Part shown: piece by piece, positions 10,480-51,730 of the stretch
How the letters are laid out: each line of letters opens with the position of its first letter
How positions within the stretch are numbered: the stretch's first letter is position 1
NCBI RefSeq assembly: GCF_005377625.1
Contig: NZ_CP040098.1
Location: forward strand, 1,853,501 to 1,917,500
From: Desulfoglaeba alkanexedens ALDC
Lineage (GTDB): Bacteria > Desulfobacterota > Syntrophobacteria > Syntrophobacterales > DSM-9756
Length of the DNA: 64,000 nucleotides
Direction of reading: 5' to 3'
Notes under the pieces: model-generated
What the model was told of the DNA's origin: nothing
What the model saw: the letters and a program-made list of their open reading frames with translations, nothing else
The model's database searches: none
Position numbers and translations under genes: made by a program

Positions 10480-10583
10480 GGGTGCAGATCTTTTGCTTCT
10501 TGTTCCCAAGCTCCAGCTTGGGAACACAACTGTGCAGAAGCTCCAGCTTCGGTGGGGCCGTTCCCAAGCTGGAGCTTGGGAAC
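10480..10583. repeat. Composite palindromic repeat (AAGCT-nn-AGCTT family), copy 1
   Basis: It contains two 24-base palindromes (10502-10525 and 10560-10583, arms GTTCCCAAGCT / AGCTTGGGAAC) and a shorter one between them (10537-10550, GAAGCT / AGCTTC). The leading 22 bases (from GGGTGCAGATC) recur at 11444. The central part is the reverse complement of 18440-18488. Each palindrome can form a strong hairpin. Confidence 0.9.
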
Positions 10584-38599: not shown

Positions 38600-38661
38600 T
38601 CGTTTCATCTGCCCGGCGGTTGCCGCCGCCGTGAGCCGGATATGCGTCAAATATGTAAGAT

Positions 38662-38819
38662 GCGTTGCAGTTCTTTCGGGATGAAAAGGGAACCCCGTGC
38701 GAATCGGGGACGGACCCACCGCTGTAACCGGGGACGAAGACGGCAGCATGCCACTGGAATCAATTCCGGGAAGGCGCCGTTGATGGGTGATCCGGGAGTC
38801 AGAAGACCTGCTGCAACGC
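38662..38819 (+). promoter_or_regulatory. Cobalamin (adenosylcobalamin-type) riboswitch
   Basis: The closing P1 stem is exact: GCGTTGCAG (38662-38670) with CTGCAACGC (38810-38818). Between them are the conserved B12-box elements: AAAAGGGAA, CCGTGCGAATCGGGGACGG, CCACCGCTGTAACCGGGGA, CATGCCACTGG, CCGGGAAGGC, TGATGGGTGATCC and GGGAGTCAGAAGACCTGC. This aptamer binds cobalamin and here switches off transport genes when B12 is plentiful. It precedes a terminator and a TonB-dependent receptor. Confidence 0.96.
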
Positions 38820-38882
38820 CGATGAAGTGCCTTTTGCCGGAAGGGGAATGACGGCCGGGGGCGAGGTACGGGAAAAAATGGG

Positions 38883-38915
38883 AGCCCGAAACCGCAAGGT
38901 TTCGGGCTTTTTTTG
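38883..38915 (+). terminator. Intrinsic terminator acting as riboswitch expression platform
   Basis: Perfect 11-pair stem AGCCCGAAACC / GGTTTCGGGCT around GCAA, followed by seven T. It lies 64 bases after the cobalamin aptamer and before the receptor gene, so cobalamin probably controls transcription termination here. Confidence 0.92.
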
Positions 38916-39024
38916 TTCCCCGTACCATACCCGCTCCGCCGCCGGAATGGGCCGGTGCTTCGGCGGCCGGCCGGTTCCAGATCACCACACATGCCGCCGC
39001 CAGGGGCGGGGAGGGGAGGAATCC

Positions 39025-39248
39025 ATGCAGTTAGGTAGCCGGAACGTATCGATGATGGATGTACGGCGCTCAATTTTGACATGCAAGAGAACGGTGAATA
39101 CGGCGCATTCAATGTCGATGTTGTCGCCGCAAAGGTCGCTCCGGCAATCGGCGTTGGCGCCGTTGGCACAATCGTCGGCGTCGGCGTGGGAGCCGTCAGG
39201 GATGACGTTGTCGACGCCTTGGCGGATAATGATCCCGCCGCTTATTGA
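39025..39248 (+). pseudogene. Small frame between the riboswitch and the TonB receptor, probably frameshifted
   Basis: An ATG at 39025 has a strong site (GGGGAGGAATCC) but its frame gives an unnatural Ser/Arg/Thr-rich translation. In the -1 frame, from about 39060 to a TGA at 39248, the translation is protein-like: TALNFDMQENGEYGAFNVD, then a Gly/Val helix APAIGVGAVGTIVGVGVGAV, ending DPAAY. A one-base indel between 39052 and 39060 would join them into one peptide of about 74 residues. I do not recognise it. Its stop overlaps the start proposed for the receptor. Confidence 0.4.
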
Positions 39249-41391
39249 TACTGATATTGCATTTATCGCATTGCGGCTACTGATACCGCTGATGGTGGCG
39301 GGCGGGTTATTGTTGTTGGTGTCCGTCCTGCCGGTGCGGGCCGCGGATGACTCTGACGTGCATCGCCTCGACGAGATCGTCGTGACCGCCACCCGCTCCG
39401 CCGCCCGCAGCTTCGACGTGGCGGCACCGGTGGCGGTGGTAGACGAAAAGCGGCTGGCGGAAACCGCGCCGGCGTCCGCCGCCGATGCCTTAGACGAGGT
39501 GCCCGGGGTGTCGCTGGTGCGCGGCGGTTCCTGGGAAGCGCACCCGGTCATTCGCGGCTTGGGCGGCAGCCGCGTGCTGGTGCTCTATGACGGCGACAGG
39601 GAGGTTAACCTGTGGTCCGGGCGGGCGCCGCTGACGCCGTTTATCGACGTCGGCAGTATCGCCCGCATCGAGGTAGTCAAGGGCCCGGCCTCGGCCCTCT
39701 ACGGCACCGACGCCCTCGGCGGGGTGATCAATATCATCACCAAAGAGGTGGATTTTGCCGACAGCGACACCTGGCGCTTCGAAAACACCGTCAACGGCCG
39801 CTATGCATCCGTTGACGAGGGCTGGTTCGGCCGCTACGAACTGGCCGCCGGGGGCAAGGGTTTTGGTTTCCGCCTCGGCCTTTCCGGCCGCGACGCTAAC
39901 AACTACGAGGACGGCAACGGCGACGAGGTGAACAATTCACATTTCGAAAACCGTAATCTCGATTTCAAGGCGCTCCATAACATCGCCGATAACCACCGGC
40001 TGACCGCCGCGGTGCGGGTCAACGAAATCGACGACATGGGAGTACCCCAAAAGGATCCCACGGCGCCGTTTTCCCATTTCGATCATTTCGATACCGGATC
40101 ATACAAGCTCGGCTACGAGGGCAGGGAACTGGGTCTGTTCGACGAGATTCAGGCCCGGCTGTTCTACGTCGACCAGGACCGCGCTTTCGCCGGGTATCTT
40201 CCAAGCCCCAGCCAACCGGTGTACACCCTGAAAACCAACGATATCGAGACCTCGGCCGCCGGCGCCTCGCTGCAGCTGACCGTGACGCCCGGTGCGGCCC
40301 AGCAGCTGATCGGCGGCTTCGAACTGGTGCGCGAGGACAGCGACTCCGATGAGACCCAGGTGATCCACCGGAACAAGGATGACAGCATCGCCAAGCGGCT
40401 GACCTTTCAGCCGGTGCCCGATGCCGAGCGGGTGCATTTCGGCATCTTCGCCCAGGACGAGATCACCATCGGCAATCGGCTGACGCTCATCGCCGGCGGG
40501 CGCTACGATTACTTCACCGCCGATGCCGATGATGTCACCTTCACCGACGAGCGCTTCGACGGCAAGAGCAAGCTCACCTCGACCACCGCTTCGATCAACC
40601 GTTTCAGTGATGAGAGCGACAGCGCCGCGACCTTCAATCTCGGCCTGGTGTATGCCCTCACCGAACATCTGCACCTGACCGGTACCGTCGGCAGCGGCTT
40701 CCGGGCGCCGGACATCTTCGAGCGCTACTCGACGCGCGGCGGCGGCGTGATCTACATCGGCGACCCGAACCTTGATCCCGAGTATTCCTACAACTTCGAT
40801 GCCGGTATTAAGGCCAGTTATGCCCGTTTTCGCGGCGGGATCGACGGGTTCTACAACCGCGTCGACGACTACATCGACACCGTGCGCCAGGCGGAATCAT
40901 TCATTTCCGGGGTTCCTACCTACAAGTACACCAACGTCCAGGATGCCGAACTCTACGGGTTCGACGGCGCCGCTGAGGTGCTGCTAACCGCCAACCTGAC
41001 GCTGTTCGGTACAGTGGCGTATGTGGTCGGCGAGGACCGCGACAGCGGCGACCGGTTGAGTAACATTCCGCCGCTGAACGGCACCCTCGGCGCCCGCTGG
41101 GAGGCGGCCGCGGGCGACCGGCTGACCTACTGGTTCGAGGCCGCCGGCGAGTTCTTCGATCGCCAGGACCACCCGGCGCCGGGGGAGTCGGAAACCGCGG
41201 GCTACGCTACGGCGAACCTGCGTACCGGGCTGCGCATGCCGGCACTTGGCCCCCTGCACGACGTAATGCTGGCCCTCAACGTCGAGAACCTCTTCGATAA
41301 GTACTACCGGTCGCACCTGCGCCTGGGCCAAAGTGATTTCATCCCCGAGCCGGGGTGCAACGTGATCACCTCGCTGCGGTTTTCGTTCTGA
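39229..41391 (+). CDS. TonB-dependent outer-membrane receptor, likely for cobalamin
   Basis: A beta-barrel receptor of about 720 aa. A signal peptide (LLIPLMVAGGLLLLVSVLPVRA) is followed by a TonB box (LDEIVVTATR). The plug domain has ALDEVPGVSLVRGG, VIRGLGGSRVLVLYDGD and SALYGTDALGGVINIITKE. The barrel ends in VENLFDKYYRSHLRLG and a terminal Phe. I place the start at the ATG at 39229, giving a normal signal peptide; the frame stays open to 39025 but that extension looks like out-of-frame translation. Riboswitch control and the following btuF/C/D-like genes point to B12 or a cobinamide-type corrinoid. Confidence 0.9.
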   Translation: MIPPLIDTDIAFIALRLLIPLMVAGGLLLLVSVLPVRAADDSDVHRLDEIVVTATRSAARSFDVAAPVAVVDEKRLAETAPASAADALDEVPGVSLVRGGSWEAHPVIRGLGGSRVLVLYDGDREVNLWSGRAPLTPFIDVGSIARIEVVKGPASALYGTDALGGVINIITKEVDFADSDTWRFENTVNGRYASVDEGWFGRYELAAGGKGFGFRLGLSGRDANNYEDGNGDEVNNSHFENRNLDFKALHNIADNHRLTAAVRVNEIDDMGVPQKDPTAPFSHFDHFDTGSYKLGYEGRELGLFDEIQARLFYVDQDRAFAGYLPSPSQPVYTLKTNDIETSAAGASLQLTVTPGAAQQLIGGFELVREDSDSDETQVIHRNKDDSIAKRLTFQPVPDAERVHFGIFAQDEITIGNRLTLIAGGRYDYFTADADDVTFTDERFDGKSKLTSTTASINRFSDESDSAATFNLGLVYALTEHLHLTGTVGSGFRAPDIFERYSTRGGGVIYIGDPNLDPEYSYNFDAGIKASYARFRGGIDGFYNRVDDYIDTVRQAESFISGVPTYKYTNVQDAELYGFDGAAEVLLTANLTLFGTVAYVVGEDRDSGDRLSNIPPLNGTLGARWEAAAGDRLTYWFEAAGEFFDRQDHPAPGESETAGYATANLRTGLRMPALGPLHDVMLALNVENLFDKYYRSHLRLGQSDFIPEPGCNVITSLRFSF

Positions 41392-41477
41392 AACCGTGGT
41401 GTGCGGTGAATTAGCGCGGGCGATGCCTGATGCATCACCCGACGGGGTTATCCTTTCGAGCTGGATGCGGTGTCGTG

Positions 41478-42575
41478 ATGTGCTGGAATCGTCTTCTTGG
41501 CTGGCTGTTGCTCATTAATGTGCTGCTGGTGCCGGCGCTGACCACGCCGCTGGCAAGGGCCGCTACCAGGGTGGTGACCGACCTGCAGGGCCGGGCGGTG
41601 CCGGTGCCGGTGCCGGCGAAACGCATCGTCGCTCTGCGTGGGGCCCTGGGGCTTATATGCTATCTCGATCTCGCCGACCGGGTGGTGGGGGTAGAGGATC
41701 ACGAAACCCGGGAGACGGAATGGGTCGGTGCGGCGGGTCGTTCCTACCGCATGGCCAACCCACGGCTCGGCCGTCTGCCGGTTGTCGGCAGCCGCAACCG
41801 TCCGGACGCGGAGCGGCTCATGGCGGCGGCCCCCGAGGTCATCTTCGCCGCCGGCGGTGATCTCCGCTTCGCCGACAACCTCCAGAGGCAAACCGGCATT
41901 CCGGTGCTTTTCGTCGACAACGGCGACCTTGCCGAGCAGCGCAAAGCGTTCTTTGCTTCCCTGCGGTTGATGGGTATGATCTGCGGCGCCGAGGCCCGGG
42001 CGGCGGCGGTCATCGACCGGGTGACGGCGGCGGTTGCCGACCTGCGGCGGCGTACCGCCGATATCCCCGCTGCCAACCGCCCGAGCACCTACATCGGCGG
42101 GATGAACTTCCGCGTCGCCCATGGCCTGCTGGGTACCAGCCGGCGCTATCCGCCCTTCATCCTGCTCGGGGCGGACAACGTCGCCGACCGGGTAAGCGTC
42201 GACCGGGGCATGGTGAAGGGGCGCTTCAGCATCGATCTGGAAACCCTGCTGGCGCTGGATCCGGAGATTATCTTCGTTTGCGAGGGCGGCCTGGAGCTGG
42301 TGCGCCGGGATCTTTGCAACCCCGCCATGGGGGAGCTTCGGGCGGTACGGGAGGGTAAGCTGTACGGCGTTTTGCCGCACTACTACGCCGCCAGCCCCGA
42401 CACCGTGCTGGCGGAAACCTACTTCATGGGTAAAGTCCTTTATCCCGAACGGTTCGCCGATATCGACACTGCCACTCTCGCCGACGATCTCTACCGCTTC
42501 TTCGTCGGCCGGCCGCTGTACGCCGAGATGACGCAAATCTTCGGTGGCTTCAAGCGTCTGGAGACGGGTCCGTGA
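41478..42575 (+). CDS. Periplasmic corrinoid/siderophore-type ABC substrate-binding protein
   Basis: A BtuF/FecB-type binding protein of 365 aa with a signal peptide (WLLLINVLLVPALTTPLARA). Features are the N-terminal VPAKRIVALRGALGLICYL and NRPDAERLMAAAPEVIFAAGG; later come NVADRVSVDRG and the C-terminal SPDTVLAETYFMGKVLYPERF. Riboswitch control indicates a corrinoid. It shares its C-terminal pattern with the binding protein at 45396 on the other strand, so the two systems are paralogous. Confidence 0.85.
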   Translation: MCWNRLLGWLLLINVLLVPALTTPLARAATRVVTDLQGRAVPVPVPAKRIVALRGALGLICYLDLADRVVGVEDHETRETEWVGAAGRSYRMANPRLGRLPVVGSRNRPDAERLMAAAPEVIFAAGGDLRFADNLQRQTGIPVLFVDNGDLAEQRKAFFASLRLMGMICGAEARAAAVIDRVTAAVADLRRRTADIPAANRPSTYIGGMNFRVAHGLLGTSRRYPPFILLGADNVADRVSVDRGMVKGRFSIDLETLLALDPEIIFVCEGGLELVRRDLCNPAMGELRAVREGKLYGVLPHYYAASPDTVLAETYFMGKVLYPERFADIDTATLADDLYRFFVGRPLYAEMTQIFGGFKRLETGP

Positions 42576-43642
42576 TGACCGCCCCGGCCGACATCGAGCG
42601 GTACCGCCGCCGGCGCCGCCGGCGCCAGCTCTGGCTTACCGGCGCGGCGCTGCTTCTTGCCTGCACGGCGCTGGTAGCCATGACCACCGGCGCGATTTCC
42701 GTTTCCCCGCATGATTTTTTCGGCCTGTTCAGGGAGGCGCCGGCGGGGCTGGCGGCGCGGGTCATCTGGTACGTGCGGCTGCCCCGGCTGGTCGGGGCCA
42801 TCCTTGGCGGTGCCGGTTTCGCCGTCGCCGGGATGGTGCTGCAGGCCATTTTACGCAATCCCCTGGCCTCGCCCTCGACCCTGGGGATCTCCCAGGGCGC
42901 GGCCTTCGGCGCGGCGCTGGGCATCATGCTGCTGAGTCTCAACGATGCCACCGCCGGTAGCCAGGGGGCGCAGCTCAGCCGCTGTCCAGCGCTGGTGAGC
43001 CTGCTCGCCTTCGGCTGTTCCCTGGCGACCACGGCCTGCATCGTCGGCCTCGCGGCGCTGCGCCGCGCAGGCCGCGAGGCCATCGTCCTTGCCGGGGTCG
43101 CCCTCGGCGCATTCTTCATGGCCGGTACCACCGTCATCCAGTATTTCGCCGACGAGACCCAGCTGGCCGCCATCGTCCGGTGGAGCTTCGGCGATGTCGG
43201 CCGGGCGACGTGGCCGGAGCTGCGGGTCATCGCCGTGGTGGTTGCCGCCGGCACCGGCTATTTCTTCTTTCAGTCCCTGTGGTTCAACGCCCTGCTGGCC
43301 GGCGGCGAGGTTGCCCGCAGCCTCGGAGTGGCGGTCTCCCGGCTGCGCCTCTGCGGAATGGTGGTCGCCGCCATGATGACCGCCGTCATCGTCACCTTCT
43401 TTGGCGTGATCAGCTTCATCGGTCTGGTGGCGCCGCACATGGCCCGCCTGCTGGTGGGCGAGGACGCCCGAACACTGCTGCCGCTGACGGCGCTCATCGG
43501 CGCCGTGCTGCTGCTGGGCGCCGACCTTCTCGGGCGGCTGATTCTTGCCCCGGTGGTGCTGCCGGCCGGGGTGGTGACCGCTTTCATGGGGACGCCGGTA
43601 TTTCTGTTGCTGCTCTTTGGGGGGCGTGGTTCGTGGAGGTAA
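42575..43642 (+). CDS. FecCD/BtuC-type ABC transporter permease
   Basis: A 355-aa permease with about ten helices. Family signatures are VRLPRLVGAILGGAGFAVAG, QAILRNPLASPSTLGISQGA, WSFGDVGRATWPEL and FFGVISFIGLVAPHMARLLVG. The N-terminus is unusually Arg-rich (RYRRRRRRRQ). Its ATG overlaps the binding-protein stop by one base (TGATG). It imports the ligand delivered by the upstream binding protein. Confidence 0.92.
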   Translation: MTAPADIERYRRRRRRRQLWLTGAALLLACTALVAMTTGAISVSPHDFFGLFREAPAGLAARVIWYVRLPRLVGAILGGAGFAVAGMVLQAILRNPLASPSTLGISQGAAFGAALGIMLLSLNDATAGSQGAQLSRCPALVSLLAFGCSLATTACIVGLAALRRAGREAIVLAGVALGAFFMAGTTVIQYFADETQLAAIVRWSFGDVGRATWPELRVIAVVVAAGTGYFFFQSLWFNALLAGGEVARSLGVAVSRLRLCGMVVAAMMTAVIVTFFGVISFIGLVAPHMARLLVGEDARTLLPLTALIGAVLLLGADLLGRLILAPVVLPAGVVTAFMGTPVFLLLLFGGRGSWR

Positions 43643-44385
43643 GGGTTGCCGACCTGAGTTTTGCCTACGGACGTCGGGAGGTGCTGAACGGTTTTGCCTG
43701 CCACCTGCAGCCGGGAAAGCTGACCGCCATCCTCGGCGTCAACGGGGCGGGGAAATCGACCCTGCTCAAGATCATCGCCCGGCTCGAACGGCCCCGGGCC
43801 GGCACCGTCATGCTGGCTGCCGACGATCTTGCCGGGCTGTCGCCGCGCCGCCTCGCCCGGCGGCTGGGTTACGTCGCCCAGCACCACGTCGTGCCCCGCC
43901 TGACGGTGTTCGAATACCTGCTCATCGGCCGCACGCCCTACCGCCGGCAACGGTACCACGCCGCGGACGAGGAGATCGTCGCCGCGGTTTTGGCCGACAT
44001 GGGGCTTACGGCATTCGCCGACCGCTGGCTCGGGGAGCTGAGCGGCGGCGAGCTGCAGCAGGTGGTCATTGCCCGCGCCCTGGTGCAGCGGCCCCGGGTG
44101 CTGCTGCTGGACGAGCCCACCGGCAACCTCGATCTGAAGAACCAGGTGGCGGTGCTGGCGGCGGTGCGGGAGCGGGCCCGGCGGGACGCGCTGACCGTAG
44201 CCTTCAGCATTCACGATGTCAACCTGGCGGTGCGTTTCGCCGACCGGTTCCTGCTCCTGCGTGACGGCCGGGTGCTGGCCGCCGGCGGTTCCGAGGTGCT
44301 GGCGCCGGAAACCTTGAGCCGGGTCTACGACGTGCCGCTCACGGTGTACCGCATCGATGGCCGGCTGCTCGTGCTGCCGGCCTGA
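43633..44385 (+). CDS. Corrinoid/siderophore-type ABC transporter ATP-binding protein
   Basis: An ATPase of about 250 aa. Walker A is GVNGAGKSTLL, signature LSGGELQQVVIARAL, Walker B VLLLDEPTGNLD, H-loop SIHDVNLA. I chose the GTG at 43633, overlapping the permease end by 10 bases, because its product begins at the family N-terminus (VEVRVADLSFAYG). It is the last gene of the riboswitch-controlled set; 90 bases later a second riboswitch-like element begins. Confidence 0.92.
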   Translation: MEVRVADLSFAYGRREVLNGFACHLQPGKLTAILGVNGAGKSTLLKIIARLERPRAGTVMLAADDLAGLSPRRLARRLGYVAQHHVVPRLTVFEYLLIGRTPYRRQRYHAADEEIVAAVLADMGLTAFADRWLGELSGGELQQVVIARALVQRPRVLLLDEPTGNLDLKNQVAVLAAVRERARRDALTVAFSIHDVNLAVRFADRFLLLRDGRVLAAGGSEVLAPETLSRVYDVPLTVYRIDGRLLVLPA

Positions 44386-44754: not shown

Positions 44755-45360
44755 TCAGTTGGCGGCGCAGCCCCGGCAGAGCCGCCGGCCGTCGACGGAC
44801 ACCAGCTTGGAGACCATGGTGGGCTCTCCACAGCGTTCACAAGGCTCCGAAGACTCGATCCTCGCCTTGTCCGGCACTTCCGTTTCCACCGCCCGCACAC
44901 TGAAAAGAGCCTCGAGCGGCGCTTCGAGCACATCACAGCTCCGCTTGAAATGGAGTGAGTTGAACCGCTCCCTTTCCTCCTCAGTGGCTTCGCCTCGGAT
45001 GAGCTTCTGGAGCAGAGCCATGTGCTCCGAATCGGGCGCAAACGCTCCCGGCTTCAGGCTGACCCTCACGCCTTTTCCGGAATCGCGGCTCATGAGAGTG
45101 AGCGCCATCTTGCCGTAATCCTTGAAGACAAAATTTCCCTTCCCAAAGGTGCAGCCTGTGAGCACCTGAACGGCGTCCGCGGCACAGGCGTCCGTTTCCA
45201 CGATGGCGACGAGCTCTTCGTCTTCGGCCCGATTTGCCTTGAGCCAGTCCATGGCGGCGTGCGCCGCTCGATAGCCCAGTGAAAGCCCTGGACACACGTG
45301 CCCGTGAAACCGAACACATCCCCTGAAGTCTTCCCGTTCCATGATTTCCTGTGCGGCCAT
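44755..45360 (-). CDS. FmdE family protein
   Basis: A 201-aa cytoplasmic protein. The FmdE domain covers residues 1-150 (FRGCVRFHGHVCPGLSLGYRAA, VETDACAADAVQVLTGCTFGKGN), with the His-x-C and Cys-Asp-x-C-type residues that bind metal in this family. A C-terminal zinc ribbon follows (CERCGEP, CRGC). FmdE was named from a formylmethanofuran dehydrogenase operon but its role is unclear. AGGAGGAAC precedes the start. It ends the DUF3842-cooT-ABC transporter operon, suggesting a metal-handling role. Confidence 0.88.
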   Translation of the reverse strand: MAAQEIMEREDFRGCVRFHGHVCPGLSLGYRAAHAAMDWLKANRAEDEELVAIVETDACAADAVQVLTGCTFGKGNFVFKDYGKMALTLMSRDSGKGVRVSLKPGAFAPDSEHMALLQKLIRGEATEEERERFNSLHFKRSCDVLEAPLEALFSVRAVETEVPDKARIESSEPCERCGEPTMVSKLVSVDGRRLCRGCAAN

Positions 45361-45395: not shown

Positions 45396-46487
45396 TCAGT
45401 TGTCAAAGAGTACCACGCCGCCCAGCGGACCGTAGATCTCTTTCATCAGCGCGTAAACCGGTTTCCCGACCAGGAACGAATAGATTTCGTCGGCCTTGGT
45501 TTCCGGATCCATACCGGCGAAGGCATCGGGATAGAGCGCTTTTCCGATGGCATAGGCGTCCGTAAGGGCCGTCCCCAGGTTGGTGCTGTAAGAGTTGTAC
45601 GGATGCAGCAAGTACACGCGGCGGGACCGGAAGGCTCGAAGCGCCTCATACACCTTGGGTCGCTTGGCGTAGTCCTCCAGGATTAGCGCCTTGCCGCCGC
45701 CGTCGATGAAGATCACATCCGGGTCCAGGGTGAGCAACATTTCCTTGTCCAAAAAAACGTGGCTCCCCAAGTGCGCGGGGATGTCTTCGGCCACATTGTG
45801 CGCCTTCGCCCATTCCAGCGGAAGATAATCCCTTTCCGTGCTCTCGATGCCGTGGGCGCCCCGGTGGCCGATTCCGCCGACGTAAACCCGCACCGGTTTC
45901 GAGCCCCTCCCCTTCAGAGCCCTCCGTTCGACCTCCAGCTTCCATGATTCGATTCCAGCGATGACCGCCTCAGCACGGCCCTCGCAGCCCAGGACCCGTC
46001 CTGCGATCCGAAGCGCGTGAAAGACTTCCGTATCGAATGTCCCCAGTTCGCCGTAGCTCAGCACAACCACCGGAATCCCAAGGCTCCGCTGCACCTCGTC
46101 GGCAAGCGGCGCCTCCATGTACGTGACAAAGATCACCTGGGGACGGACGCGCAGAAGGCTTTCCATGTCCGGTTTCTTGTTGATGGCGGCCGGACCGCCG
46201 GGGCCCACGGACGGAAGCGCAGCCAGCTCCGGGTGAGCCAACCGATACGGACGGCCTGCAGGGTCACGCTTTTCCAGCGATTCGACGCCGCAAACCCTTT
46301 CGACGGCCCCCAGATAAACGATCAGTCGAAGGGACCCCGGGCCGAGGCAGACGATCCGCGACGGCTCGCGGCCCACTTCCACCGATCGACCCGCCTGATC
46401 CCGCACGGTGACGGTCGCGGCCCATCCGGGTACCGTCATGAGACACACAACCCAGGCAATGCCCAAGCAGCCGATAAGTCGGGTCAA
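45396..46487 (-). CDS. ABC transporter substrate-binding protein, metal-chelate or corrinoid type
   Basis: A binding protein of about 363 aa with a signal peptide (LIGCLGIAWVVCLMTVPGWAA). Features are VGREPSRIVCLGPGSLRLIVYL, PDMESLLRVRPQVIFVTY, VYVGGIGHRGAHGIEST and the C-terminal HPYNSYSTNLGTALTDAYAIG. I chose a TTG start at 46487 because TTGGAG precedes it by six bases and it overlaps the ATPase stop (TTGA). The ligand is not known; neighbours CooT and FmdE suggest a metal such as nickel, possibly as a chelate. Confidence 0.82.
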   Translation of the reverse strand: MTRLIGCLGIAWVVCLMTVPGWAATVTVRDQAGRSVEVGREPSRIVCLGPGSLRLIVYLGAVERVCGVESLEKRDPAGRPYRLAHPELAALPSVGPGGPAAINKKPDMESLLRVRPQVIFVTYMEAPLADEVQRSLGIPVVVLSYGELGTFDTEVFHALRIAGRVLGCEGRAEAVIAGIESWKLEVERRALKGRGSKPVRVYVGGIGHRGAHGIESTERDYLPLEWAKAHNVAEDIPAHLGSHVFLDKEMLLTLDPDVIFIDGGGKALILEDYAKRPKVYEALRAFRSRRVYLLHPYNSYSTNLGTALTDAYAIGKALYPDAFAGMDPETKADEIYSFLVGKPVYALMKEIYGPLGGVVLFDN

Positions 46488-47338
46488 GAGTTGCTCCAAA
46501 CGGCTCGTCCCCTTTGTTCGCTCCCACGCGCCTCCGGTGGAACCCCGTGAAAGGCGCCCTCTCCGTCTTTCGATCCAACGGGATCGCCCATTGGAACCAC
46601 CACCCGGTGCCCACCAGCCTCCACTAAGAGCACCTCCACGCCGTAGACTTCCCGGACCATCTCCGCCGTTACGGCTTCCGCGCGAATCAAGGCGTGCACC
46701 CGGCGATCCTTGAGAAAGAGAAGTTTATCGGCAAACCGCAGCGCGAGATTCAAATCGTGGAGGCAGATCGCCGCGGCAAGGTTTCCATCTTTCACCGCCG
46801 CTCGGACGAGCCCCATGACTTCCAGCTGGTTCTTGAGATCCAAGCTGCTCGTGGGTTCGTCCAGAAGGAGCACCTTGGGCTCCTGCACCAGCGCCCGCGC
46901 GATCACCACCTTCTGGGCTTCCCCGCCGGAGAGCTCCGAAACCGGCCGAAGAGCCAGATCCTCCAGGCCCATCTGTCGGATCGCCGTTTCAACCCGTCGA
47001 TAGTCTGCGGGCTCAGGCGACCATCGGATGTGAGGCTTTCGACCCAGGAGCACCGCTTCGAACACCGTGAGGCGGGTTTCTCGAGACCGTTGAGGCACGT
47101 GGGCCACGTGCCGGGCGATTTCGCGCTGAGGCATTGCCAGAAGATTTCGTCCGTCCAGCAGCACCACACCCAACTGAGGCCGCAGAATCCCGTTGAGGCA
47201 CCGAAGGAGGGTGGACTTTCCTGCCCCGTTTACGCCCATCACCGCCAGCACCGCCCCGGATCGGAGCGTCAGAGCCACCTCGGTCAGCACGGACCGGCCG
47301 TTGTAACTGAAATGAAGATCCGTCGCCGAAAGGATCAT
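46484..47338 (-). CDS. ABC transporter ATP-binding protein of the CooT/FmdE-linked system
   Basis: A 284-aa ATPase. Walker A is GVNGAGKSTLL, signature LSGGEAQKVVIARAL, Walker B VLLLDEPTSSLD, H-loop CLHDLNLA. It is a FepC/BtuD-type subunit, longer than its paralogue at 43633 by a C-terminal tail (DPVGSKDGEGAF...) that runs toward the next gene. Start and stop both overlap neighbours by four bases, showing tight coupling. Confidence 0.92.
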   Translation of the reverse strand: MILSATDLHFSYNGRSVLTEVALTLRSGAVLAVMGVNGAGKSTLLRCLNGILRPQLGVVLLDGRNLLAMPQREIARHVAHVPQRSRETRLTVFEAVLLGRKPHIRWSPEPADYRRVETAIRQMGLEDLALRPVSELSGGEAQKVVIARALVQEPKVLLLDEPTSSLDLKNQLEVMGLVRAAVKDGNLAAAICLHDLNLALRFADKLLFLKDRRVHALIRAEAVTAEMVREVYGVEVLLVEAGGHRVVVPMGDPVGSKDGEGAFHGVPPEARGSEQRGRAVWSNS

Positions 47339-48420
47339 CGTGTTCCCCGAATGAGCAGGCCCAGGAAGAGGGGGGCCCCAAGAAAGGACGTGATGACACC
47401 CACCGGAAGGGCGCCTGAGCCCATGACAGCCCGTCCCAGCGTGTCCGCTGCGAGAAGGAGGAGCGAACCCAGGACACCGGAGGCGGGGACCAGAAAACGG
47501 TGATCCGGGCCCACCAGCCGCCGGGCCATGTGGGGAGCGATAAGACCCACGAAGGCGATCACACCGTGGAAGGCGGTCGCGAGAGCCGAAACGAGCGCCG
47601 CCGCGAGCAGTCCTTCAAAGCGCAGGCGTTCCACCGGAACTCCCAGCCCTCTCGCCGTCTCCTCACCCGCCTCCAACGCGTTCAGGTCCCAGCGGCGTCG
47701 CGCGAGGTGGACGGCTGCCAGGCAAGCCACAAGCGTCAACAGGCCTATTTCCCGCCATCCGGAACGGCCAACGTCCCCAAAGCTCCACACCACCGCCTGG
47801 GCCAGCCGCGTCTCGTCGGAAAGATATTGGACAAGAATCGTACCGGCCCCGAAGAGCGACGATAGGGCCACCCCCGCCAGAATGACCGCCTCTGGCGAAA
47901 GCCTTCGCAAACGCCCCAGGCTCAAGATGATCAGCGTGGCACCCATGGCGCCGCAAAAGGCGAAAAGCGATACCGAAAGCACGCGCCCTTCAAACAGGAT
48001 GATGGCGCACGCCGCACCGAAGGCCGCCCCTTGACTGATGCCCAAGGTCGACGGAGACCCGAGCGGGTTCCGAAGCAGCGCCTGAAGACTCAGCCCAGCC
48101 AGTCCCAGCCCCCCGCCTACGACCAGCGCCGCCGCGATGCGGGGCATACGGATCTGCCAGACGACGATCCCGGCCGGTCCCTCCGCCGGTTTTCCCACGA
48201 GTGACCACCAGACGCTCGCTAGGTCCAGGTGATACGCTCCATGGGTTACCGCCAGCAGCGCGGTGCCGATCGTGACAACCAGAAGGATCGCCAAAAGCCA
48301 GGTCCTCTTCCTGGCCAGCCGCAAATAGGAGCGGGTCACCCCTTCAGAGCGCCAACCGACCGCCGAGCCGTCCGAATCTTCACGCAACGAGAGGATCCCC
48401 CCGGTAGGCCCTTCAGGCAT
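47335..48420 (-). CDS. FecCD/BtuC-type permease of the CooT/FmdE-linked system
   Basis: A permease of about 361 aa with around ten helices. Signatures are RMPRIAAALVVGGGLGLAG, QALLRNPLGSPSTLGISQGA, VVWSFGDVGRSGWREIG and HGVIAFVGLIAPHMARRLVG, closely resembling the forward-strand paralogue at 42575. The first 35 residues are polar and lie before the first helix. The ATG at 48420 overlaps the end of cooT by eight bases; a TTG three codons upstream is possible. Confidence 0.9.
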   Translation of the reverse strand: MPEGPTGGILSLREDSDGSAVGWRSEGVTRSYLRLARKRTWLLAILLVVTIGTALLAVTHGAYHLDLASVWWSLVGKPAEGPAGIVVWQIRMPRIAAALVVGGGLGLAGLSLQALLRNPLGSPSTLGISQGAAFGAACAIILFEGRVLSVSLFAFCGAMGATLIILSLGRLRRLSPEAVILAGVALSSLFGAGTILVQYLSDETRLAQAVVWSFGDVGRSGWREIGLLTLVACLAAVHLARRRWDLNALEAGEETARGLGVPVERLRFEGLLAAALVSALATAFHGVIAFVGLIAPHMARRLVGPDHRFLVPASGVLGSLLLLAADTLGRAVMGSGALPVGVITSFLGAPLFLGLLIRGTR

Positions 48421-48607
48421 CTTCTTCAAAGAAGATCTTATGGTTCACCAGGTTCATGGATTTGATCCGCCCGCGAACCGTCTTCCGGTCTCCAAAAATA
48501 CCAACCAACCGCCAAGTCCTTTCGTCTTCCGGTTCAATGACATCGACGGACTCCATCAGAAGTTCCTCCCGACCTTCCTTGAGCAGGTACGCGTTGGCTT
48601 CACACAT
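48413..48607 (-). CDS. cooT: CooT family nickel-binding protein
   Basis: A 64-aa protein beginning MCEANAYLLKEGREELLMES, then VDVIEPEDERTWRL, IFGDRKTVRGRIKSMNLVNHKI. The start fits CooT, whose N-terminal Cys2 binds nickel and whose best-known member supports maturation of nickel carbon-monoxide dehydrogenase. The ATG at 48607 overlaps the DUF3842 stop by eight bases; the frame upstream of it is not conserved. Its place between DUF3842 and a metal-type transporter suggests nickel handling by the whole operon. Confidence 0.88.
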   Translation of the reverse strand: MCEANAYLLKEGREELLMESVDVIEPEDERTWRLVGIFGDRKTVRGRIKSMNLVNHKIFFEEDA

Positions 48608-49028
48608 CTTCCAAAACCTCCTTGAGCTTTTCCTGAACAAGGGCTTGCACCAGGTGAGGCAGCGGTTCCTTGCCCACCCCCACGATCACGACCCGTTCTT
48701 GCGTGAGCGGCAACAGGATCTTGGGTGACGGGCAGGACATGACCGCCTCCGCCACCCGCGGCGTCACTTCTCCGAGCATCGCGTTGGCCCACGTGATCGC
48801 GACGGGGCCGATGACGCAGTCGGCCTGACGGACAGTCCAACAGATGGCGCTTTCACCGGTGGCTCCCCGGTTGGCACCGGCCCGCATCATCTGTGACGTG
48901 GCGATGGCATTCGTTCCCAAGGCCAAAACCTCCAGCGATTCCCCGTAGGCCTCCTTGATGTACTTGATGAGGGTCGCCCCGATACCGCCCCCTTGGCCGT
49001 CGATAACGCAGATCCGCTTGAGTCCCAC
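48600..49028 (-). CDS. DUF3842 family protein
   Basis: A protein of about 142 aa with an N-terminal Rossmann-like start (RICVIDGQGGGIGATLIKYI), a central GTNAIATSQMMRAGANRGATGE, and conserved CWTVRQADCVIGPVAI and NAMLGEVTP. I chose the GTG at 49028 with GAGGA 10 bases upstream, since it starts just before the conserved region. Function unknown; it typically accompanies CooT and such transporters. It is the first gene of the operon and follows a leader with a strong terminator. Confidence 0.85.
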   Translation of the reverse strand: MGLKRICVIDGQGGGIGATLIKYIKEAYGESLEVLALGTNAIATSQMMRAGANRGATGESAICWTVRQADCVIGPVAITWANAMLGEVTPRVAEAVMSCPSPKILLPLTQERVVIVGVGKEPLPHLVQALVQEKLKEVLEDV

Positions 49029-49125: not shown

Positions 49126-49176
49126 AAAAAGAAAAACCACGAAAGCCGAGCCCCTTTTGAGCCCCGGCCTTCGTGG
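49126..49176 (-). terminator. Strong intrinsic terminator inside the leader of the DUF3842-cooT operon
   Basis: On the minus strand the arms CCACGAAGGCCGGGGCTC and GGGGCTCGGCTTTCGTGG pair over about 18 positions (one mismatch, a few G-U) around AAAA, followed by TTTTTCTTTTT. It lies after the promoter and about 100 bases before the DUF3842 start codon, so it must be conditionally bypassed for the operon to be made. Confidence 0.9.
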
Positions 49177-49247
49177 CCGCCTTCAACAGACTGATCTTGC
49201 GTCTTCACAGAAACGGCACCTTCATGATGCCGTCTATTAGGTTCTAC
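49177..49247 (-). promoter_or_regulatory. Structured leader preceding the terminator, candidate riboswitch or attenuator
   Basis: Between the promoter and terminator the minus strand can form a perfect hairpin ACGGCA / TGCCGT (49213-49233) and a smaller AGAC / GTCT stem, leaving GGCGGCC next to the terminator arm. I do not recognise a known aptamer. No short leader peptide with repeated codons is evident. Given the nickel-type gene content, a metal sensor is a natural guess. Confidence 0.45.
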
Positions 49248-49276
49248 TAGTAACGTATCGCCGTCGCCTTTGTCAA
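49248..49276 (-). promoter_or_regulatory. Promoter of the DUF3842-cooT-ABC-fmdE operon
   Basis: Minus-strand TTGACA (49276-49271) and TTACTA (49253-49248) separated by 17 bases. Transcription would start near 49240, just ahead of the structured leader. Confidence 0.6.
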
Positions 49277-49402
49277 CCGCCCGCAACAACCCAGGACGAT
49301 TTTATTCTGCAAAAAAACACAAATACAACTCACAATTTCAGAAATTGAGGCATAACGGGTGTGCTCCTCCTATCCTGAACCGCTGAGAACTCTGCTTCAT
49401 GA

Positions 49403-50345: not shown

Positions 50346-50548
50346 TAAAACTAATGAGATGGGAATACGTATCCTGAATGACGGATCAAGTTCAGCATGA
50401 CGAGAGAACTTTGGACTCTCAAGTTTGTAATAAAGTCGTACCAATAATATCTAGGTTAAGTTGACTCAGGGAATCAAAGTAACATTGTTCTATCCCCTTA
50501 TTTTATAATCAGCGCAGGCTATTACTACTGAAAGGAGGAGGAGTGAAC

Positions 50549-51730
50549 ATGAAAAGAATTTTCGGTTTTTTTGTGGCTGGGTTACTTTTGCCATCCATAG
50601 CCATGGCAGTTGAAATATACAAAAAAGACGACATGTCGTTAAACGTAGGTTGGTGGGGGCAGGTTTGGTTTCAAAATATATCGGATATGAATATGGATAA
50701 TGATGACGAGAAGTACGATGATAACCTAAACGATTTCCTCATCCGCCGTAGTTATTTTTACTTAGATGGTACCATTACGCCTGAACTGAGTTTCTTTGTT
50801 CATTTTGCCAGTGACAAGTTGGGGATGGACGAGATCACCAATGATTCAGATAAAGGCCTGGGATCGGGTATTGCCGTGCGGGATGCCTGGTTCAATTATA
50901 AGATCCTTGGCGATGATCTTATGGTCCAGGTCGGCCGGATGTATATCCCCTTTACACGCAATTACGGGACCACTTCCACCAAAGCGATGTTGACGCTTGA
51001 CCTTGACTGGGGCCAAGGTGGGTCGCACAGCGGTATATTTTATCCCAGTAATATCGGTCGCGATGATTCTATCACACTGTGGGGTAATGTTCTGGAGGAT
51101 AAGTTACAGTATCGATTGATGATAGGAGATGGGGAAGATAACAATACAAAAAATCCCGACGATAATGTGCGTTTTGCTGGGCGTCTTAGCTACAGTTTCT
51201 TCGATCCTGAAACAAAGTGGTTCAATTCTGAGACCTATCTGGGAACCAAGCGAATCCTTGCCATAGGTGCGGGCTTTGATTTTGAACATGACATGGTGAT
51301 CGCCGGGAAAAAGGATGATTATACAGCCTGGACTGTTGATTTTACTTACGATCAACCGATGGCACAGGGAAATAGCCTGACCTTGGTCCTTTCTTACATC
51401 AATATTTCGCACGTTCCCAATGCCATCACATGGACCCAATTGGGCGCGGGAGATGATGGCGATATCATTTCCGCTAAGATAGGGTACTATTTTGGGGATA
51501 AACTCGCGTTAGGCAACCTTCAGCCGTATACTCAGGTGCAAAATATTCATTCAGATGAAAGCGGCGACGATGATACGATGATTTACGGATTTGGGCTAAA
51601 CTATTATCTAAAAGGCGTGGCAAACAAAATCAGCTTGGAGGCCTCTTTTATGGATCAGGATGAGGAAGTTCCAGATTCTGCAATTAGGGACAATACAACA
51701 ATCACCCTTCAGTTTGCGCTTGGATTTTGA
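50549..51730 (+). CDS. Outer-membrane porin, AT-rich and probably acquired
   Basis: A 393-aa beta-barrel protein with a signal peptide (IFGFFVAGLLLPSIAMA). Alternating aromatic strands follow (WWGQVWFQNI, RRSYFYLDGTITPELSFFVHF), with GRMYIPFTRNYG and a terminal Phe (TLQFALGF). The pattern resembles the phosphate-selective or ExtI-type porins. AAAGGAGGAGG lies eight bases before the ATG. Its codon use (many AAT, GAT, AAA, ATT) is unlike the GC-rich neighbours, and it is flanked by a MITE-like copy and transposase remnants, so recent transfer is likely. The substrate is unknown. Confidence 0.85.
   Translation: MKRIFGFFVAGLLLPSIAMAVEIYKKDDMSLNVGWWGQVWFQNISDMNMDNDDEKYDDNLNDFLIRRSYFYLDGTITPELSFFVHFASDKLGMDEITNDSDKGLGSGIAVRDAWFNYKILGDDLMVQVGRMYIPFTRNYGTTSTKAMLTLDLDWGQGGSHSGIFYPSNIGRDDSITLWGNVLEDKLQYRLMIGDGEDNNTKNPDDNVRFAGRLSYSFFDPETKWFNSETYLGTKRILAIGAGFDFEHDMVIAGKKDDYTAWTVDFTYDQPMAQGNSLTLVLSYINISHVPNAITWTQLGAGDDGDIISAKIGYYFGDKLALGNLQPYTQVQNIHSDESGDDDTMIYGFGLNYYLKGVANKISLEASFMDQDEEVPDSAIRDNTTITLQFALGF

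Follow-up and report, generated by a model that had tools for sequence, protein, structure and literature searches.

Metal riboswitches are an established kind of leader RNA, and the NiCo (cobalt/nickel) riboswitch is a metal-linked leader of this sort that controls export. Protein-dependent leaders are represented by the targets of ANTAR-domain antiterminators, in which two small hairpins, the second overlapping a terminator, carry hexaloops with A1 and G4 (PMC3369931). For nickel, the deltaproteobacterial NikR regulon includes NikMNQO and NikK (PMC545781), NikR-independent regulation of NikABCDE has been suggested (PMC2667541), and CooT binds one nickel per dimer with the involvement of Cys2 (PMC6006190). 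In the part consulted of a paper on nickel in cable bacteria (PMC11247825), the word "riboswitch" has no occurrences and NikR is named only in the references.

The locus described here lies in a 64,000-nt window (the whole stretch of Desulfoglaeba alkanexedens ALDC DNA that was analysed), where a terminator-bearing leader precedes an operon beginning with genes for DUF3842 and CooT. Judged from sequence comparison, this leader is one copy of a switch-like element that many sulfate-reducing bacteria and related organisms carry ahead of their nickel-uptake genes. It resembles the ANTAR targets (EutV, NasR, AmiR) in its tandem small hairpins, the mutual exclusion of second hairpin and terminator, its variable linker and its occurrence at several operons per genome, but differs in its mostly (A)NGAA loops of 4-5 nt, in the nickel-uptake genes it precedes and in showing no association with ANTAR proteins. 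Its targets overlap those of NikR, such as NikMNQO and NikK; NikR, however, is a DNA-binding repressor, and the NikR operator GTGTTAC-N13/14-GTAACAC had no match near positions 49126-49340 with up to 3 mismatches allowed. Unlike the NiCo riboswitch, the element would control uptake, and a search of Rfam 15, with NiCo and other riboswitch families included, gave the leader no match at the gathering score nor up to E = 1, in keeping with the earlier note, which had recognised no known aptamer; among 20 element loci, no Rfam regulatory family scored above its gathering score. Elsewhere in the window, a related transporter operon is preceded by a cobalamin riboswitch (RF00174), which does not resemble the leader. 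Neither a description of the element nor a mention of DUF3842 was found in the literature searched, which excluded most subscription journals, and the element is apparently unreported so far. What is new here is the hairpin code together with the gene set; the terminator/antiterminator leader is an already known kind.

Anatomy of the leader and its operon

The whole leader was read on the minus strand, from 49276 down to 49126 (Table 1). The earlier note had described a good promoter, two small stems and a strong terminator. Of the promoter, the perfect -35 box stands, but the -10 is weak, and consensus scans of the window called neither a promoter nor a terminator at the leader. Of the stems, P1 holds as claimed, whereas the second relevant stem, P2, forms part of the terminator's 5' arm instead of preceding the terminator. 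The strength of the terminator, a stable hairpin followed by a U-tract, is borne out.

Table 1. Parts of the leader and of the operon behind it, numbered by position in the window
Feature	Position	Strand	Basis
-35 box TTGACA	49271..49276	-	perfect match to consensus, sequence
Candidate -10 TACTAG, weak, 18-nt spacer	49247..49252	-	sequence; under promoter-scan threshold
Hairpin P1, 9 bp, pentaloop AUGAA	49212..49234	-	fold -12.9 kcal/mol
Hairpin P2, GGCC-ACGAA-GGCC	49166..49178	-	fold -5.8 kcal/mol
Intrinsic terminator stem, P2 within its 5' arm	49136..49177	-	fold -33.2 kcal/mol
Terminator U-tract TTTTTCTTTTT	49126..49136	-	sequence
DUF3842 protein, GTG start, candidate trans-acting factor	48600..49028	-	Pfam PF12953, E 3.4e-53
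CooT, nickel-binding accessory protein	48413..48607	-	Pfam PF10133, E 1.7e-24
FecCD-type ABC permease	47335..48429	-	Pfam PF01032
ABC transporter ATPase	46484..47338	-	Pfam PF00005
Periplasmic binding protein (Peripla_BP_2)	45396..46499	-	Pfam PF01497
FmdE-domain protein with DksA/TraR-type zinc finger	44755..45360	-	Pfam PF02663 + PF01258

P1 and P2 are separated by a linker of 33 nt, and about 98 nt lie between the U-tract and the GTG of DUF3842 (49028). For the stretch 49245-49111 the folding energy is -58.7 kcal/mol; shuffled versions average -40.65 (z -5.16), and 0/200 of them are as stable. P2 and the terminator are mutually exclusive pairings located ahead of the first gene, and folds of truncated transcripts indicate that P2 is able to form before the 3' arm of the terminator exists. 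Of the two folds, the terminator has the greater stability; for read-through to occur, something must hold P2.

Converging on the nickel operon is a second uptake operon (38651-44379, plus strand), in which a cobalamin riboswitch is followed by a TonB receptor, a binding protein, FecCD and ABC genes. The FecCD and ABC proteins of this B12-type operon are 49% and 45% identical, respectively, to those of the nickel operon.

Same-family relatives and a second copy

The productive route to further copies was comparison of orthologous clusters, followed by motif and model searches. At the level of DNA, similarity to the whole leader across 59 genomes (E<=0.01) was confined to the genome's own second copy, the terminator of one relative (G005) and a match within a coding gene of G046. 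The leader seemed unique at first because DUF3842 in the relatives usually comes after tonB; likewise, searching directly upstream of DUF3842 was misleading, since the Desulfacinum-type leader precedes exbB and it is tonB that adjoins DUF3842. Six of the seven same-family relatives (G001, G003, G004, G005, G006, G007) nevertheless keep the element's layout in their orthologous clusters; the seventh, G002, was left out because its stretch as read was without this cluster. In these relatives, the gene order is receptor, (binding protein,) FecCD, ABC, exbB-exbD-tonB-DUF3842-cooT-FecCD2-ABC2-BP2 and FmdE, with tonB identified from its translation, and the element occupies the gap that follows ABC, ahead of exbB or of a repeat-protein gene that precedes exbB. 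Its parts follow one another in the order TTGACA, CC-(A/U)CGAA-GG hairpin, linker, a second CCACGAAGG and terminator.

The D. alkanexedens genome itself holds a second copy of the element (L277, G000:C1:1605711; model score only E 0.06), which precedes a short stretch resembling part of the repeat-protein gene and then exbB-exbD. From this second copy before exbB-exbD, we infer that the window operon may be one half of a split ancestral cluster, with one leader per half. The genome's second DUF3842 copy (L039, G000:C1:1381815) is without a detectable element.

Distribution across the phylum

A tandem-hairpin regular expression applied to 152 loci (1.17 Mb) returned 25 rows, some of them one place twice and one (L041) probably a chance match, while the reversed pattern returned 0 matches in the same loci. 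A P2-plus-terminator pattern gave 42 matches, of which 32 were aligned (A1) and used to build model R1. Left out of A1 were a reverse-strand match (L117), a short one (L072:5932), L094, L100:4350, L115 and the near-duplicates L038, L083, L118, L125:5786 and L128. At E<=0.01, 50 of the 59 relatives contain an R1 match; in the phylum sample, searched at E<=1e-3, 64 of 197 genomes do and 133 do not. Some R1 matches are both strands of one palindromic terminator. Pattern and model matches, after removal of identical 80-nt windows, yielded a set of 137 distinct elements, for which R1 matches were fetched in part. Across the phylum, the element precedes DUF3842-cooT, exbB/tonB, TonB receptor, NikM, NikK and FecCD genes, and it is this recurrence as a 5' leader of metal-uptake genes that sets aside the possibility, allowed for in the earlier note, of a terminator belonging to a stray separate transcript.

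P1, P2 and the terminator as a conserved RNA

P1 was tested strictly, as an upstream hairpin with a stem of >=5 and a loop of 4-6 nt ending in GAA. Such a hairpin was found in 77 of the 137 elements, compared with 6/98 control windows 300 nt further up and a shuffle mean of 3.5 (maximum 7), and was not matched in the other 60; among the 95 elements supplied by model searches, it was found in 45. Other loop endings gave counts of 1-13, apart from AAG (31), an ending that overlaps GAAG. Nearly all of the P1 loops (72/77) are of 4 or 5 nt, the remaining five being hexaloops, some of them ANNGAA, and the P1-P2 distance ranges from 3 to 99 nt. Likewise, CANGAAG or CNGAAG with all four outer positions paired occurred at 49/83 sites upstream of P2 versus 226/5882 elsewhere. 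TTGAC is present at -200 to -45 relative to P2 in 103/137 elements (shuffle mean 17.4, maximum 26).

The earlier note had proposed that related leaders be compared for covariation, and the structure is indeed kept. The letters of the P1 stem vary widely while pairing persists: in A6 (14 leaders), both sides have changed in 5 of 7 P1 pairs, the number of both-side-changed cells being reached in 1/500 shuffles and the covariation score in 5/500, although for percent paired the alignment does no better than shuffles (101/500). P2 is paired in 91.4% of cells on A1, with both-side changes in 2 of 4 pairs. The terminator pairs are nearly invariant, with a slight covariation signal on A1 and none on A6. 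Taken as a whole, what is conserved is a pair of tiny GAA-loop hairpins joined by a linker of varying length, which looks like a protein-binding site.

The downstream gene set

For each of the 95 model-found elements, the first ORF behind it was classed by phmmer against seeds named from element loci, the "hydrogenase-type protease" and CooC assignments resting on reading of the sequences; the ORF taken was the longest one starting <=420 nt away, such that a few may be spurious. Seventy-five of the 95 fall into nickel/cobalt uptake, TonB-system, porin or nickel-accessory classes, namely TonB receptors (20), NikK/DUF4198 (12), NikM/CbiM (11), OprB-like porins (7), ExbB (6), FecCD (4), TonB (4), hydrogenase-type proteases (3), CooT (2), DUF3842 (2), binding proteins (2), CooC (1) and CbiQ (1), with 20 others. 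Putative TonB-receptor substrates aside, these targets fit nickel uptake and nickel-enzyme assembly, and the suggestion of a metal regulon, raised earlier from the single operon, thus extends to a gene set that shares the element.

Two further observations concern these loci. The OprB-like porins that follow the elements L153, L160, L171 and L237 may be nickel porins that have so far escaped recognition. A small protein with an LNHWIKHN-like region adjoins element-bearing nickel/cobalt transporter genes at L234, L239, L246 and L105:7088-7372, and is histidine-rich in L105.

Co-occurrence with DUF3842, CooT, NikR and ANTAR proteins

Co-occurrence was scored across one 197-genome sample of the phylum. 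DUF3842 is present in 59/64 element genomes versus 8/133 others (p 3.5e-35) and CooT in 63/64 versus 47/133, whereas NikR is present in 4/64 versus 89/133 (p 2.8e-17) and thus absent from 60/64; these p-values overstate the associations, since DUF3842 loci formed part of the training set of R1 and the genomes share ancestry. The mutual exclusion of DUF3842 and NikR, which occur together in 2/197 genomes, is independent of R1, and extends to families, 26 of which have DUF3842 and 40 NikR, with 2 shared, out of a total of 83 that is approximate (taken from label numbers). In one family (f49), the DUF3842/element and NikR systems are found in different genera. The D. alkanexedens genome has an ANTAR protein and no NikR_C match. 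ANTAR proteins show no association with the element (29/64 versus 55/133, p 0.65).

The exceptions are few. In the one element genome without CooT (G005), a contig break (contigs of 3637 and 3230 bases) interrupts the cluster at the expected tonB-DUF3842-cooT place, and the lack is probably an assembly gap. Among the element genomes without DUF3842, the element of G112 is clear and lies downstream of cooT, and that of G040 lies before NikK (L175), while G106 and G158 have weak R1 matches. Conversely, eight DUF3842 genomes are without an R1 match, and the leaders read among them carry no element. Finally, G123 and G148 have NikR, yet carry the element before NikK-like genes.

DUF3842 is often the first gene of an element-bearing operon. 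Its predicted structure is a confident Rossmann-like fold with no telling neighbour, and structure searches with the model found no RNA-binding relative, with middling Z. The CooT model matches the CooT structures 6fan and 5n76, its next match, RimM, being weak, and Cys2 is invariant in 51 CooT sequences.

Proposed mechanism and alternatives

The leader is best read as a cis-acting transcription attenuator of the nickel-uptake gene set, in which a trans-acting factor would hold P1 and P2 when nickel is scarce (probability about 0.68). By default, the nascent RNA would form the terminator, and transcription would end ahead of DUF3842-cooT. Under nickel scarcity, a trans-acting RNA-binding factor would grip the tandem P1 and P2 at their (A)NGAA loops, P2 would take up the 5' arm of the terminator, and polymerase would read through; with nickel present, the factor would let go and uptake would be halted. 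As with ANTAR, a pair of near-identical small hairpins whose spacing varies points to a protein dimer as the binder. The likeliest factor would be DUF3842, perhaps together with CooT, the nickel protein; these two are encoded first in the operon. We infer that regulation takes place, in this direction; nickel is probably its signal, the sensor is probably a protein rather than RNA, and DUF3842, by its association, is the leading though tentative candidate for the sensing factor. More speculatively still, DUF3842 with CooT could be the founder of a new family of nickel-sensing RNA-binding antiterminators that replaces NikR in many families of the phylum and reads tandem GAA-loop hairpins in a multi-operon regulon.

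The earlier note had raised the possibility of a new metal- or cofactor-sensing RNA. The corresponding alternative here is a two-hairpin metal riboswitch, whose leader would itself bind nickel, cobalt or a metal complex. Terminator-bearing leaders before metal-uptake genes would suit such a riboswitch, but the element offers no extended conserved core, just two 11-13-nt hairpins whose linker varies from 3 to 99 nt, and it has no Rfam match, a strict genomic partnership with the protein DUF3842 and a rarity where NikR is present, all of which makes direct sensing by the RNA unlikely. A response to cobalt or corrinoid supply instead of nickel is comparably improbable: CbiM/CbiQ, TonB and FecCD also serve cobalt or B12, and the adjoining uptake operon is of the B12 type and preceded by a cobalamin riboswitch, but that neighbouring operon owns its separate riboswitch, and the NikK/DUF4198, CooT, CooC and hydrogenase-type protease targets, together with the exclusion of NikR, point to nickel.

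Very unlikely is a feature with no part in controlling the operon, be it an ordinary terminator, a stand-alone small RNA or a DNA operator. In favour of such readings, terminators of the intrinsic type occur commonly, termination would produce an RNA of 100 nt, and operators can take the form of inverted repeats; against them, the same conserved motif recurs in the terminator stem before metal genes in many families, 133/197 genomes are without a match at E<=1e-3, and P1 pairing is kept despite changing stem letters, which a DNA operator would not need. Least probable of all is a target of an ANTAR-domain antiterminator, an identity suggested by the pair of small hairpins, of which P2 overlaps the terminator, and by the few P1 hexaloops (5/77, some ANNGAA), but rejected because both loop form (AUGAA and ACGAA in the window, and mostly 4 or 5 nt elsewhere, not a hexaloop with A1 and G4) and protein distribution (35/64 element genomes without an ANTAR match) fail.

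Since most element genomes in the 197-genome sample are without NikR, the question arises of how nickel is controlled there. The analysis supplies an RNA element, a list of its targets and, as candidate regulator, DUF3842, a domain of unknown function; it also suggests what DUF3842 may do and a regulatory context for CooT. If the attenuator reading is true, these genomes would control a nickel regulon at the level of RNA, through a new code of hairpin recognition.

Other features of the window

Elsewhere in the window, positions 50543-51730 (plus strand) encode a porin like ExtI of selenite/tellurite reduction operons, with a score under the model cut-off, and a perfect TTGACA-18-TATAAT promoter-like site lies at 53929-53900 (minus strand). 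Finally, a dispersed palindromic repeat, approximately GTGTTCCCAAGCTCCAGCTTGGGAACAA, is present in at least three copies, at 10500, 11464 and 18463.
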